Below, piece after piece: positions 46,073-51,784 of a stretch of 64,000 nt of DNA (the stretch's first letter is position 1; each line of letters starts with the position of its first letter). Position numbers and translations under genes: made by a program. This DNA comes from Methanothrix harundinacea 6Ac (GTDB lineage Archaea > Halobacteriota > Methanosarcinia > Methanotrichales > Methanotrichaceae), in contig NC_017527.1 in NCBI RefSeq assembly GCF_000235565.1, positions 2,108,001 to 2,172,000 of the forward strand, written 5' to 3'. Below the pieces are notes generated by a model. That model worked only from the letters and a program-made list of their open reading frames with translations, had not been told where the DNA came from and ran no database searches.

Positions 46073-47204
46073 GAGTATTCCTATTTACCATTGCCCATTC
46101 TTTAATTATCTCGGATCCGTCTCTTATTTTAGCTCGTTCTCCGCTCTTAGTCGATTCTCGATCCTTTTCCTCGTTTTTCGTCGATAGCTACCGCTATTTT
46201 GAGACGATTTCAGCATTTTTAAGTGTACATAGCTGGTATAAGTCGAAAGCAAAGGCAGTGAATACCATTTTAACGTGAACTCTCGGGATCGTCGTTACCA
46301 TTACATGCGCGCTTCGGAACACTCTTTTAATAACAGCAAACTGACGTTCGCCCGGAAATCTCAGTTTGCTAATCAAGCGGTTTCGCAGCTTATCGAGATC
46401 GCTTAGAGGATGACCCGCTGCTGCACGTTTCATTGTGAAGTCGTTTCCCTTAGCCTTCACACCGAAATATCCTTTGTCCCTGAGGACCACCTCTCCTTCA
46501 ACCGATAGATCAACCCGACTATCGTGCACCGAAGCAGTTGTCGATTCGATGCTCCTTATCAGGCCGTAATCGATATCGACTTTAGAATGAAGTTTATAAC
46601 CAAAATGGAGTTCCTCACCCTTCTTAGCCCAAGTTCCATCCCTGCTCCGACGAGTCCTAGCGGTCTCTCTTCTTGGTTTCTTTGAACCTCCTGGGTCGGC
46701 CTCTATAAACGTTGCATCCTGAATGGTTCCTCTTTTTACCTGAAGCCCTTTAAAATCGAGCTGTCTCTGGAGCTCTTCCCAAACGGACTCATCCTTTCCC
46801 GTCTGGGCCATCCGCTCGCGAAAAAGCCATATCGTCCTGGAATCGGGTATAGAATCAGGAAATCCTAAGAATTTCATAAAAGATATTCGATCCGAAATCT
46901 GCTTTTCAGTCTCGAGGTCGCTCAACCCGTACCACTGCTGGAGCAAAAGCACCTTGAGCATCAGGATAACATCAAAGTTCGGCCTTCCGCCTCGTTCGGT
47001 TTTATTATGATACATCTCTTCAAGAATTGGTCGAAATGGTTCCCACTCGATCAAGTTCGTTATCTTTGAAAGCCTATCGCCCAGCTTCTCTACGTTCTTG
47101 TAAGCTTCTCGAAGGCCCCATGCAGTAAAAGAACTCATGCACTATTCATGTATATATTAGTATATAATGTTTTCCATAGACATGCTAGGTTTTTAGGAAT
47201 CCTC
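46073..47204. mobile_element. IS5-type insertion sequence, 1132 bp
   Basis: One transposase gene flanked by imperfect 17-bp inverted repeats: left GAGTATTCCTATTTACC (46073-46089), right, read inward, GAGGATTCCTAAAAACC (47188-47204), 13 of 17 identical. The 4-bp direct repeat AACC lies outside both ends (46069-46072 and 47205-47208), as expected for a target-site duplication. Length and layout fit IS5. The ends were found by eye. Confidence 0.7.
46194..47138 (-). CDS. IS5-family DDE transposase
   Basis: 314 residues, intact. N-terminal helices with WEPFRPILEEMYHN and GGRPNFDVILMLKVLLLQQW, then the DDE fold: first aspartate in IQDATFIEADPG, second in VHDSRVDLSVEGEVVLRDKGYFG, and the C-terminal glutamate in FPGERQFAVIKRVF. 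This is the IS5/IS1182-like domain order (DUF772 plus Tnp_1). The full frame suggests that the element may still be active. Codon use is AT-richer than the host genes. Confidence 0.88.
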   Translation of the reverse strand: MSSFTAWGLREAYKNVEKLGDRLSKITNLIEWEPFRPILEEMYHNKTERGGRPNFDVILMLKVLLLQQWYGLSDLETEKQISDRISFMKFLGFPDSIPDSRTIWLFRERMAQTGKDESVWEELQRQLDFKGLQVKRGTIQDATFIEADPGGSKKPRRETARTRRSRDGTWAKKGEELHFGYKLHSKVDIDYGLIRSIESTTASVHDSRVDLSVEGEVVLRDKGYFGVKAKGNDFTMKRAAAGHPLSDLDKLRNRLISKLRFPGERQFAVIKRVFRSAHVMVTTIPRVHVKMVFTAFAFDLYQLCTLKNAEIVSK

Positions 47205-47218
47205 AACCTTACTGTTTT

Positions 47219-47683
47219 AAATAAAATGTTGTATTATATGGTTAATATGGAAACTCCCAGATTCTTCCTTATGGTGTCAAGATCCACCCCTTTCCTTACC
47301 AAAGATTCAGCATAAAAATGTCTTAGGCTATGCGGTGAATACCCTTCTATCCCCGCCATATCGGAGTATTTTTGAAATGCGTACCTTACCGCTCTAGTAC
47401 TCAAAGGTGACCACCAACCAGCTATGAAATAATTATGCTCATTTTTCCGGTAAAGGTGACGATGACGGTCTAATTGCTCCTCTATCACTTCTTGTAGGCA
47501 CTCAGGATAAATTACAGTTCGAGATTTACCGCTGTTAGAACTGGTCTTACCTACATGTATAAGCCTCCGTTCCAAATCAATATCGCCATAAGTTAAGTTT
47601 ACCGCTTCAACAGATCTTAATCCACAAAGAGCCATTAACTGCCATATAATCCAATATTCGCCATCTGCTGAAGCCTCAATCAA
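47219..47683 (-). pseudogene. Tyrosine recombinase (integrase) C-terminal remnant
   Basis: 149 codons of the catalytic domain. The first arginine (CGLRSVEAVNL), the lysine/beta-strand region and HxLRH (SPHSLRHFYAESLVRKG) are present. The N-terminal DNA-binding domain is missing and the end is broken: LGVSILTI then a stop, where intact enzymes have LGHxSIxTTxxY with the nucleophilic tyrosine. The next bases in another frame (ATTAACCATATAATACAACA) look like the lost end. AGGAGGTTGATTG could still start translation at a TTG at 47683. Probably an inactive relic of an integrated element. Confidence 0.75.
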
Positions 47684-48817: not shown

Positions 48818-48958
48818 CTAATAAGCCCTCCTCATTTTCGTATCCTAATATCTTCTCTATTTTCTCTCTTTCGCTCATCAAATATCGTCTCGACTTCTTC
48901 CCGTCCCTTCCCACACTTGAACTTAAGTCTTTTCGCCGTCGCGAACTGATCCTGGAAG

Positions 48959-49018
48959 GGGTGTTCTTATGTAACCCGAGGAAAAGATTTAACCGGCCAG
49001 GTTACATAAGAAGCACCC
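48959..49018. promoter_or_regulatory. Long dyad around the promoter of the DUF6788-znu operon
   Basis: Left arm GGGTGTTCTTATGTAACC (48959-48976), right arm GGTTACATAAGAAGCACCC (49000-49018): the arms match except for one extra base. The 23-base middle contains AAAAGATTTAAC, a TATA-like box. The right arm covers the expected transcription start and ends directly before the TTG at 49019. This is the layout of a repressor operator, and the downstream zinc importer suggests a metal-responsive regulator. Confidence 0.55.
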
Positions 49019-49318
49019 TTGATCCCCAAATTCATCCTGGAGGAGCTCGCCGAGGAGGACCTCCCCCACCTCCTGGAGGTGAGGGACTACCTCGACCGGC
49101 TGATAAGAGATCGCGAAGAGTACCCCGTTGAGGATGGCTCCGAAGCCGAGGCCGGCAGGAGGAGGCCCGCCTCCGTCACCTACCGGCAGGAGTGGGTATA
49201 CTGCGGCAAGGAGTGCAAGACCTGCCCCCACGGACCCTACTGGTACTGCTACTGGAAGGAGGACGGAAAAACCCGGACGAAGTACATCGGCAAGGTCCTG
49301 AAGGAGGTGGAGCTGTGA
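49019..49318 (+). CDS. DUF6788-like putative zinc-binding protein
   Basis: 99 residues. N-terminal helices (FILEELAEEDLPHLLEVRDY) and a C-terminal CxxxCxxC-HGPYWY module (YCGKECKTCPHGPYWYCYW) ending in TRTKYIGKVL, typical of the small DUF6788 family. The cysteines and histidine could bind zinc. TTG is the only reasonable start and sits next to the dyad, so the mRNA is probably leaderless. Its stop overlaps the znuA GTG (GTGA), which ties it to zinc uptake. Confidence 0.72.
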   Translation: MIPKFILEELAEEDLPHLLEVRDYLDRLIRDREEYPVEDGSEAEAGRRRPASVTYRQEWVYCGKECKTCPHGPYWYCYWKEDGKTRTKYIGKVLKEVEL

Positions 49319-50208
49319 CCGCACCTCGCCATCCCCTTCTGGCCCTGGCCCTATCCCTCGCCCTGGCCCTCCTCTGCGGCTGCCTATCCGCCGACGAGCC
49401 GGCCGCCGCCCCGGTGGGGGGAAAGGTGAAGGTCGTCGCCTCCACCGTTCCCCTGGGCACCTTCTCCTCCATGGTGGGTGGGGACCTGGTGGAGGTCGCG
49501 GTCCTCGTCCCGCCGGGGGCGAGCCCCCACACCTTCGAGCCGACCCCCTCGAAGCTCGCGGAGGTGGCGGAGGCGGAGCTCTACATCAAGAACGGGGCCG
49601 GCCTTGAGATCTGGATGGAGAGGATGATCCAGGCGAATAGGAGGATGCTCGTCGTCGACACCTCCACCGGGGTGGAGCTGATAGAGACGGCCGGCTCCTC
49701 CTGCCACGAGAAGATCCTGACGGCGGACCCCCACATCTGGCTCTCGCCGAAAAACGCCATGATCATCGTCGAGGAGATCTGCGACGGCCTGGTGGAGGTG
49801 GACCCCGAGAACGCCGAGGCTTATCGGAGGAACAGGGACGATTACCTCCTGAGGCTCGAGGAGCTCGACCGCGAGCTAGAGTCCGCCTTCTCCGGGGCCT
49901 CCCGGAGGGAGTTCATCGTCCTCCACCCCGCCTGGAGCTACTTCGCCCGGGATTACGCCCTCGTCCAGGTGGCGATCCTGGAGGGGGATAAGGAGCCTGG
50001 GCCGCGGTACCTCGCCGAGATCGTCGAGGTCGCCCGGGAGGAGAACCTCACCACCATCTTCGTCGACCCGAACTTCAGCCCCAAGTCAGCGGAGATCATC
50101 GCCGGGGAGATCGGCGGACGGGTCGTACCCCTCGACCCCCTCGCCGAGGATTACATCGAGAACATGAGGGCCGTAAGCCGAGAGATAGGAAGGAGCCTGG
50201 AAGGCTGA
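49315..50208 (+). CDS. znuA: Zinc ABC transporter, solute-binding lipoprotein
   Basis: 297 residues from GTG at 49315, with GGAGGTG six bases upstream. Lipobox LLCGC, then the cluster A-1 fold: metal ligands in PHTFEPTPSK, ADPHIWLSPKN and VLHPAWSYFARDY, and the acidic ligand in IFVDPNFSPKSAE. It captures Zn(II) (perhaps Mn(II)) outside the membrane for ZnuBC. It lacks the long histidine-rich loop of many bacterial ZnuA proteins; only SSCHEK is present in that area. Confidence 0.9.
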   Translation: MTAPRHPLLALALSLALALLCGCLSADEPAAAPVGGKVKVVASTVPLGTFSSMVGGDLVEVAVLVPPGASPHTFEPTPSKLAEVAEAELYIKNGAGLEIWMERMIQANRRMLVVDTSTGVELIETAGSSCHEKILTADPHIWLSPKNAMIIVEEICDGLVEVDPENAEAYRRNRDDYLLRLEELDRELESAFSGASRREFIVLHPAWSYFARDYALVQVAILEGDKEPGPRYLAEIVEVAREENLTTIFVDPNFSPKSAEIIAGEIGGRVVPLDPLAEDYIENMRAVSREIGRSLEG

Positions 50209-50228: not shown

Positions 50229-50984
50229 ATGGCCGGCGCAGATCCCGTATCGATCCAGAACCTCTGGGTCCGACTGGACGGGCGGACCGTCCTGGAGGAG
50301 GTGAACCTGGAGGTGAAGGAGGGGGACTTCCTCGGGCTGATCGGCCCGAATGGCGGGGGGAAGACGACCCTCCTCAGGGCCATCCTGGGGCTGGTGAAGC
50401 CCTCCCGGGGAAGGGTTGCGGTCTTCGGGATGAGCCCCGAGGCGGCCCGATGCCGGGTCGGCTACCTCCCCCAGAAGAGCCTCTTCGACCAGAGGTTTCC
50501 GATCCGGGCCCTGGAGGTGGTACTGATGGGCCGCCGGGGAAGGATGGGCCTCTTCGACCACTACTCCTCTGAGGATCGCGAGGCGGCCCTCTCCGCCCTC
50601 AAGGCGGTGGGGATGCTGGATCTGAAGGACCGGGAGATTGGGGCCCTCTCCGGGGGTCAGCAGCAGAGGGTCTTTGTGGCGAGGGCCCTCGTCTCGGAGC
50701 CCGACCTCCTCCTCCTGGACGAGCCCGCCACCGGGATCGACAGCGCCCGGCGGCGAGAGTTCTACGAGCTCCTCGGCGACCTGAACGAGAATATGACGAT
50801 AATAATGGTCTCCCACGACATCAGCGCCGTATCCACGTACGTCAAGAAGATCGCCTGCGTCAGCCGGAGGCTATTCTACCACAGCTCAAAGGAGCTCTTC
50901 GCCGAGGAGATCGAGGAAGCGTACCAGTGCCCCGTGGAGATGATCGCCCACGGCATCCCCCACCGGGTCCTGAGGGAGCACTGA
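50229..50984 (+). CDS. znuC: Zinc ABC transporter, ATPase
   Basis: 251 residues. Walker A GPNGGGKTTLLRAI, Q-loop GYLPQKSLFDQ, signature LSGGQQQRVFVARAL, Walker B LLLLDEPATGID and switch histidine MVSHDIS. Good ribosome-binding site (GGAAAGAGGA) and 20-base gap after znuA. Confidence 0.94.
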   Translation: MAGADPVSIQNLWVRLDGRTVLEEVNLEVKEGDFLGLIGPNGGGKTTLLRAILGLVKPSRGRVAVFGMSPEAARCRVGYLPQKSLFDQRFPIRALEVVLMGRRGRMGLFDHYSSEDREAALSALKAVGMLDLKDREIGALSGGQQQRVFVARALVSEPDLLLLDEPATGIDSARRREFYELLGDLNENMTIIMVSHDISAVSTYVKKIACVSRRLFYHSSKELFAEEIEEAYQCPVEMIAHGIPHRVLREH

Positions 50985-50989
50985 CCGAT

Positions 50990-51784
50990 ATGATCGAGGC
51001 CTTCGCCTACGAGTTCATGCAGAGGGCCCTCGCCGCAGGCCTCATCGCCGCCGTCCTCTGCGGCGTCATCGGGGTCTACGTCATCCTCAACAGGATCGTC
51101 TTCATCGGGGGGGGTATCGCCCACACCGCCTTCGGCGGGATCGGCCTCGGCTACCTCCTGGGGACCGACCCCCTCCTCTTCGCCGTCCTCTTCTCCCTGG
51201 CGGCCGCCCTGGGGATCGGGGCGATCAGCGACCGGCCGAGGGTCTCGGAGGATACGGCGATCGGCGTCTTCTGGGCGGCGGGGATGGCCCTGGGGATCGT
51301 CTTTATCAGCCTGAGCCATGGATACGCCCCCGACCTCTTCGACTACCTCTTCGGGAACATCCTCGCCGTATCCTGGGGCGACGTTCTCCTCATATCGGTC
51401 CTCACCCTCCTGATCCTCGGCCTGGTGGCCCTCCTCTACAAGGACCTCCTGATCCTCTCCTTCGACCCCGGCTACGGCGAGGCGGTGGGCCTCCCGACGA
51501 GGGGGCTGCGCCTCCTCCTCCTCTGCATGGTGGCCCTCTCCGTCGTCGTCCTGATCAAGATCGTGGGGATAATCCTGGTGATAGCCCTCCTCACCATCCC
51601 CGGAGCCATAGGAAGGCAGCACTCCTCCAGCCTCAAAGGGATCATGGCCCTCGCCATCCTCCTCGGCGGCGCCTTCGTCCTGGTGGGGCTCGTCGTCTCC
51701 TACCAGCTGAACATCCCCTCGGGGGCGACGATCATCCTCGCCGCCGCGGGGTCCTTCCTCGCCAGCACTCTCCTCGCCCGATGA
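50990..51784 (+). CDS. znuB: Zinc ABC transporter, permease
   Basis: 264 residues with about eight membrane helices, cluster A-1 permease family. GGGIAHTAFGGIGLGYLLG near the N-terminus is the family signature, and KIVGIILVIALLTIPGA the later one. The ATG at 50990 follows the znuC stop by five bases. Confidence 0.93.
   Translation: MIEAFAYEFMQRALAAGLIAAVLCGVIGVYVILNRIVFIGGGIAHTAFGGIGLGYLLGTDPLLFAVLFSLAAALGIGAISDRPRVSEDTAIGVFWAAGMALGIVFISLSHGYAPDLFDYLFGNILAVSWGDVLLISVLTLLILGLVALLYKDLLILSFDPGYGEAVGLPTRGLRLLLLCMVALSVVVLIKIVGIILVIALLTIPGAIGRQHSSSLKGIMALAILLGGAFVLVGLVVSYQLNIPSGATIILAAAGSFLASTLLAR

Follow-up and report, generated by a model that had tools for sequence, protein, structure and literature searches.

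The window that we analyzed is a 64,000-nt stretch of the genome of Methanothrix harundinacea 6Ac. It contains an operon for zinc import in which the znu genes follow a small gene that encodes a DUF6788-type protein (Table 1). This is the only DUF6788 gene in the genome. Just ahead of it is an inverted repeat, which we will call the dyad. Farther upstream of the operon, at 46194-47683 on the minus strand, are genes for a DDE transposase and for a member of the phage integrase family. PADLOC found no defense family.

Table 1. The dyad and the operon that follows it. Positions are those of the window.
Feature	Position	Strand	Description
Left arm, TTCTTATGTAACC	48964..48976	.	Part of the perfect dyad; kept in relatives
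TATA-like box, TTTAA	48988-48992	+	Between the arms, 31 nt 5' of the start codon; predicted leaderless promoter
Right arm, GGTTACATAAGAA	49000..49012	.	Part of the perfect dyad; kept in relatives
DUF6788-type gene	49019..49318	+	99 amino acids, TTG start; weak match to PF20586; proposed autoregulator
znuA	49315..50208	+	Zinc-binding lipoprotein of ABC importer; PF01297, E = 1.9e-76
znuC	50229..50984	+	ABC ATPase; PF00005, E = 1.7e-30
znuB	50990..51784	+	ABC-3 family permease; PF00950, E = 5.6e-76

The sequence-only reading had described an 18/19-nt dyad around a TATA-like box, with the first start codon right behind it, and both features are real. The arms match perfectly over 13 nt each, across a 23-nt spacer that contains the TTTAA. 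If the arms are extended to 21 nt (AAGGGGTGTTCTTATGTAACC at 48956-48976 and GGTTACATAAGAAGCACCCTT at 49000-49020), then they are 86% complementary; an extra G at 49013 is the only difference between this version and the 18/19-nt version. The TTG start codon, at 49019-49021, follows 6 nt after the right arm's perfect 13 nt.

The window contains just one perfect 13-nt inverted repeat with a spacer of 10-40 nt, and it is the znu dyad; 40 dinucleotide shuffles of the window gave a mean of 0.075 such repeats. Even with up to two mismatches allowed, GGTTACATAAGAA is found in the window only at the two arms. In the whole genome, CTTATGTAAC-N15..30-GTTACATAAG occurs once and the reversed pattern does not occur (all of our genome-wide site counts are from pattern searches). 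The half-site TTACATAAGAA is found at one additional place in the genome (L001). With a single dyad in the M. harundinacea genome, this is not the scattered mobile repeat that the sequence-only reading had warned of.

We searched for the DUF6788 protein in 61 genomes and read the DNA 5' of each copy. Across the genus and the wider family (Methanotrichaceae), TCTTATGTAAC and GTTACATAAGA lie directly 5' of the start codon of DUF6788, whether that is ATG, GTG, or TTG. The DNA farther upstream is unrelated, even among close relatives. The conserved part is about 11-12 nt per arm, and the outer GGTG/CACC extension of the arms is not conserved in relatives. Most of the related promoters have a TTTAW-type box in the spacer, 30-33 nt 5' of the start codon, which is the placement expected if a leaderless archaeal promoter lies between the arms. 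The dyad had been put forward as an operator candidate, and, as an inference, this is well supported by the conservation of the arms, the spacing, the position of the TATA-like box, and the dyad's location at the start codon.

Among the Methanotrichaceae, both arms are kept in 29 of 30 loci that are headed by DUF6788, nearly all of which are znu operons. (These loci are L004-L026, L029, L122, L123, L126, L127, L130, and L131; L016, a second copy, lies where its contig ends, so its znu neighbor is out of view.) In L126, the left arm is worn and there is an extra right half-site. In contrast, for 12 znu operons that lack DUF6788, the roughly 1.3 kb or more upstream of each contains neither the dyad nor so much as a CTTATGTAA half-site. 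Fisher's exact test for 29/30 versus 0/12 gives P of about 1e-9, which is merely indicative because the loci are related by descent. All six operons with DUF6788 that we retrieved along with these 12, L126 among them, have the dyad. The sequence-only reading would have taken a lack of the dyad before znu in all relatives as evidence against an operator, but relatives whose operon is headed by DUF6788 do have it. ZnuA itself was found in 44 of 50 Methanotrichaceae genomes. (In G003:C1, znuA seems to be split: DUF6788 and the first 87 codons of znuA are at 1129314-1129574, and the rest of znuA is at 1356790-1357596, about 227 kb away. This suggests either a rearrangement or an assembly join.)

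Methanotrichaceae also have stand-alone paralogues of DUF6788, and these have differing dyads of their own (TCTTATATGTAAT, TTCTTATATGT, TCTTATAGAC, ATCTTATATG, and CGTCTTATGTG). Because the 12 znu operons that lack DUF6788 have no dyad, whereas DUF6788 genes without znu do have one, the element is DUF6788's own, and so the likely regulator is the product of the first gene. We did not find a regulator for the znu operons without DUF6788 among their upstream genes.

Dyads also precede DUF6788 genes from outside the family. In haloarchaea, the arms 5' of the DUF6788 ATG are of the CCTTATGTA type, and DUF6788 genes from Bipolaricaulota, Desulfarculales, Chloroflexi, and cyanobacteria have identical or related arms. 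For the copies on plasmids, the dyad ends at -2 to +6 nt relative to the ATG. In halovirus PhiCh1, the dyad (GACCTTATCAAAC/GTTTGATAAGGTC) ends at the ATG. (With tblastn, the window protein had no match in phages; a haloarchaeal form of DUF6788 finds both phiH and PhiCh1.) Counting against autoregulation, some types of DUF6788 have no dyad (those of the f7 family, Actinobacteria, Ktedonobacteria, and phiH). Overall, after reducing redundancy, 32 of 62 DUF6788 genes had a dyad score of at least 10, as compared to 14 of 462 control ORFs from the same loci; the corresponding odds ratio of 34 is approximate because for some DUF6788 genes we scanned a longer stretch than for the controls. In a comparison of 13 distinct arm sequences, arms pair at 10.4 of 11 positions within a gene and at 7.5 between genes. 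Since the dyads were found by their symmetry, these figures mainly show that the arms vary by gene yet remain paired. (Among the neighbors of these genes, in cyanobacteria and on a haloarchaeal plasmid, we noticed ParA-type genes that lie 300-415 nt 3' of a DUF6788 gene with a dyad, at L177, L186, and L227. In Ktedonobacteria, at L197, L210, and L222, DUF6788 without a dyad is directly upstream of an NrdR-type gene; Pfam confirmed the NrdR domain for L197 only.)

Five viral contigs (L257-L261) and G007:C13 (L030/L072) have DUF6788 with its dyad and also have arrays of half-sites. The arrays lie upstream of DUF6788 or in the coding sequence just past the DUF6788 domain, where the in-frame arrays encode LPKT-like repeats. 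The repeated motif resembles the arm of the same gene's dyad: it is GTCTTATGTAAG or a close variant in the viral contigs and GTCTTTGGTAAG in L030. The arrays provide circumstantial evidence for recognition of the half-site by the DUF6788 protein.

Some Methanotrichaceae and haloarchaea, and 15 viral contigs, have additional dyads with the same arms at sites apart from DUF6788. Plasmid PL100 of H. walsbyi (NC_017457.1) has 11 dyads, including the gene's own, and one Bipolaricaulota genome has 12. The extra dyads in the second half of PL100 are intergenic by annotation. Wherever we ran the reversed pattern as a control, it gave no copies. So scattered copies do exist outside of M. harundinacea, yet their spacers are unrelated, as expected for protein sites and not for copied DNA. 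These extra dyads suggest that DUF6788 may have a function beyond autoregulation; they may serve as additional operators, or else in DNA architecture or partition. (Many dyads with unrelated spacers are found in L227/G432 and G435, on plasmids or contigs that also bear DUF6788. At L142, G080:C2:27677, an extra haloarchaeal dyad is right before the ATG of a small ORF, MAEHTHPALIFLSELRVLTMCKHPSYRKCECS..., whose product contains Cys but is not a DUF6788 protein.)

The window protein scores 18 bits against PF20586, which is under the gathering cut-off of 27.2 bits, and NCBIfam has no family for it. Nevertheless, it aligns over its full length with PF20586 members that are above the cut-off, and they share the core CGK.C..C.HGPYWY...GKT..KYIGK, although the Cys-His stretch is shorter in the window protein. 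One member from the genus, with its in-frame neighbors included, reaches 27.2 bits, and the Methanotrichaceae paralogues are above the cut-off. The Cys3His motif followed by HGPYWY...Y(I/V)GK is common to the window protein and to the members above the cut-off. Across 42 aligned members, the Cys3His is conserved in all (C62, C69, and H71 are invariant and the third cysteine is at 66 or 67), and all have a basic residue at position 80. This Cys3His is probably a zinc-binding site. In an AlphaFold2 model (mean pLDDT of 79), the protein begins with two helices, which a disordered linker connects to a three-stranded sheet. In the literature that we searched, we found no published function for DUF6788.

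By profile comparison, the nearest protein of known structure is the ucm-binding protein (UBP) of Sulfolobus (PDB 9EFD/9EFE/9EFF; NCBIfam NF052683), but the match is weak (E = 0.39 against PDB profiles). UBP is also a small basic protein, and the match spans the GPYWY...GKT..KYIGK hairpin. The binding site of UBP is an 11-bp element, which it contacts with beta-hairpins, and changing K63, K67, and K69 to alanine abolishes binding (PMC12141716). The element is about as long as one arm of the dyad, and in the weak profile alignment, those three lysines are opposite K80, K84, and R86 of the window protein. Furthermore, the ucm element ATTATACAAAC (as deduced from printed oligonucleotides) and TCTTATGTAAC are identical at 7 of 11 positions without gaps. 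On the other hand, UBP lacks the Cys3His in the aligned stretch, and it belongs to the nucleoid-associated proteins, having 329 ChIP peaks (PMC12141716). UBP thus has hundreds of sites, and it has a role at replication origins, while M. harundinacea has one dyad. The window protein does not match NF052683 (cut-off of 90 bits); 4 of the 42 members match it weakly (best E = 8.9e-4; L190 has 14.5 bits). Foldseek found no significant match in PDB for models of either the whole protein or the C-terminal domain, and a tblastn search of plasmids with a fragment of UBP gave a single chance-level match. Because the fold searches gave no confirmation, kinship with UBP is only a lead.

The gene and the repeat recur together in archaea, bacteria, plasmids, and viruses, so the DUF6788 protein most likely binds the repeat and regulates the operon that it heads. 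Indeed, the candidate operator is at the gene's own promoter, is inherited with the gene, and changes with it, as for an autoregulator. We propose that the DUF6788 protein binds the dyad as the operator of its own gene and thereby controls DUF6788-znuABC. In each subunit, the basic beta-hairpin domain would read one 11-13-bp arm via its major groove; the N-terminal helices would join two such subunits over the 23-nt spacer (a center-to-center distance of 36 bp), although the bridging is a guess because UBP binds as a monomer. The bound protein would bracket the TATA box and the transcription start and would repress DUF6788-znuABC, as a local feedback. Zinc may tune the binding, so that import is turned off when zinc is sufficient. 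From these sequence comparisons, we infer the binding, the bridging by a dimer, repression instead of activation, and the response to zinc. We are fairly confident of self-binding and autoregulation and consider the overall proposal for DUF6788-znuABC to be probable; zinc may be the signal, but we would not count on it.

The dyad might instead be the operator of a separate zinc repressor that is encoded elsewhere, such as a DtxR/MntR-type protein like ZntR, with DUF6788 merely being the first gene. The operon does import zinc; comparative work proposed that znuABC of Methanosarcina is regulated by ZntR, which is of the DtxR type (PMC2770081); and the M. harundinacea genome has one clear DtxR-family gene. 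However, this gene is far from the operon (C2:275712), and such a repressor does not fit with the dyad's absence from those 12 znu operons that lack DUF6788 or with its presence at DUF6788 genes without znu, which occur in archaea, bacteria, plasmids, and a virus. We consider a separate repressor to be quite unlikely. It is also unlikely, if a little less so, that DUF6788 is mainly an architectural or partition-type protein (like UBP or a centromere-binding protein), for which the dyad would be one site among others and the control of znu would be incidental. This would account for the extra dyads on plasmids and in genomes, which are intergenic where checked, and for the half-site arrays in the viral copies. 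It would also fit with the ParA genes just 3' of DUF6788 at L177, L186, and L227, with parA being near the DUF6788 gene in phiH and PhiCh1, and with the many ChIP peaks of UBP. But the M. harundinacea genome has a single dyad, which is at a promoter, and the dyad is constantly placed at the start codon.

We also considered that the dyad might be an RNA hairpin or a mobile repeat that has nothing to do with a regulator. The arms could pair as RNA, and the transposase and integrase genes are just 1-3 kb upstream. But because the TATA-like box is between the arms, transcripts from the dyad's promoter should not include the left arm. Also, in the extra copies, the arms and their spacing persist while the spacers are unrelated, and M. 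harundinacea has just one copy. We rejected both of these explanations, which seem very improbable.

Returning to autoregulation by DUF6788, a zinc-responsive repressor had seemed the simplest hypothesis for the dyad. This hypothesis finds only partial support, given the znu operons that lack both DUF6788 and the dyad, but the DUF6788 protein could itself respond to zinc. The f7 family, from the same phylum, has a different type of DUF6788, without the dyad, just upstream of transporter genes: ZnuA-like at L096 and L100, and CbiM-like (cobalt-type) at L099 and L118. (L098 is another f7 locus with this type of DUF6788 just upstream of a ZnuA-like or CbiM-like gene.) Zinc sensing by DUF6788 is plausible. 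However, most homologues elsewhere that have a dyad do not neighbor metal genes, and the Cys3His ligands may therefore be structural.

Archaea were reported to lack Zur (PMC2770081). The role that we propose for DUF6788 is equivalent to that of Zur or ZntR, with an operator that overlaps the znu promoter and feedback from zinc. But these are unrelated protein families, the candidate regulator here is encoded by the gene that heads the operon it would control, and the operator of DUF6788 accompanies its gene into settings without zinc genes.

The control of zinc import in methanogens is largely an open field (PMC2770081), and DUF6788 provides a specific candidate, with one gene and one site. 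It also gives a domain of unknown function a likely DNA-binding role and a putative recognition sequence, and tentatively ties it to UBP, a recently described DNA-binding protein from archaea. More speculatively, DUF6788 might be an unrecognized family of self-regulating DNA-binding proteins that crosses domains, with a portable paired operator (CTTAtGTAAc...gTTACaTAAG), which is used by plasmids and viruses and has been recruited as a metal sensor ahead of importers. If so, then the member from Methanotrichaceae would be the missing zinc regulator of znuABC.
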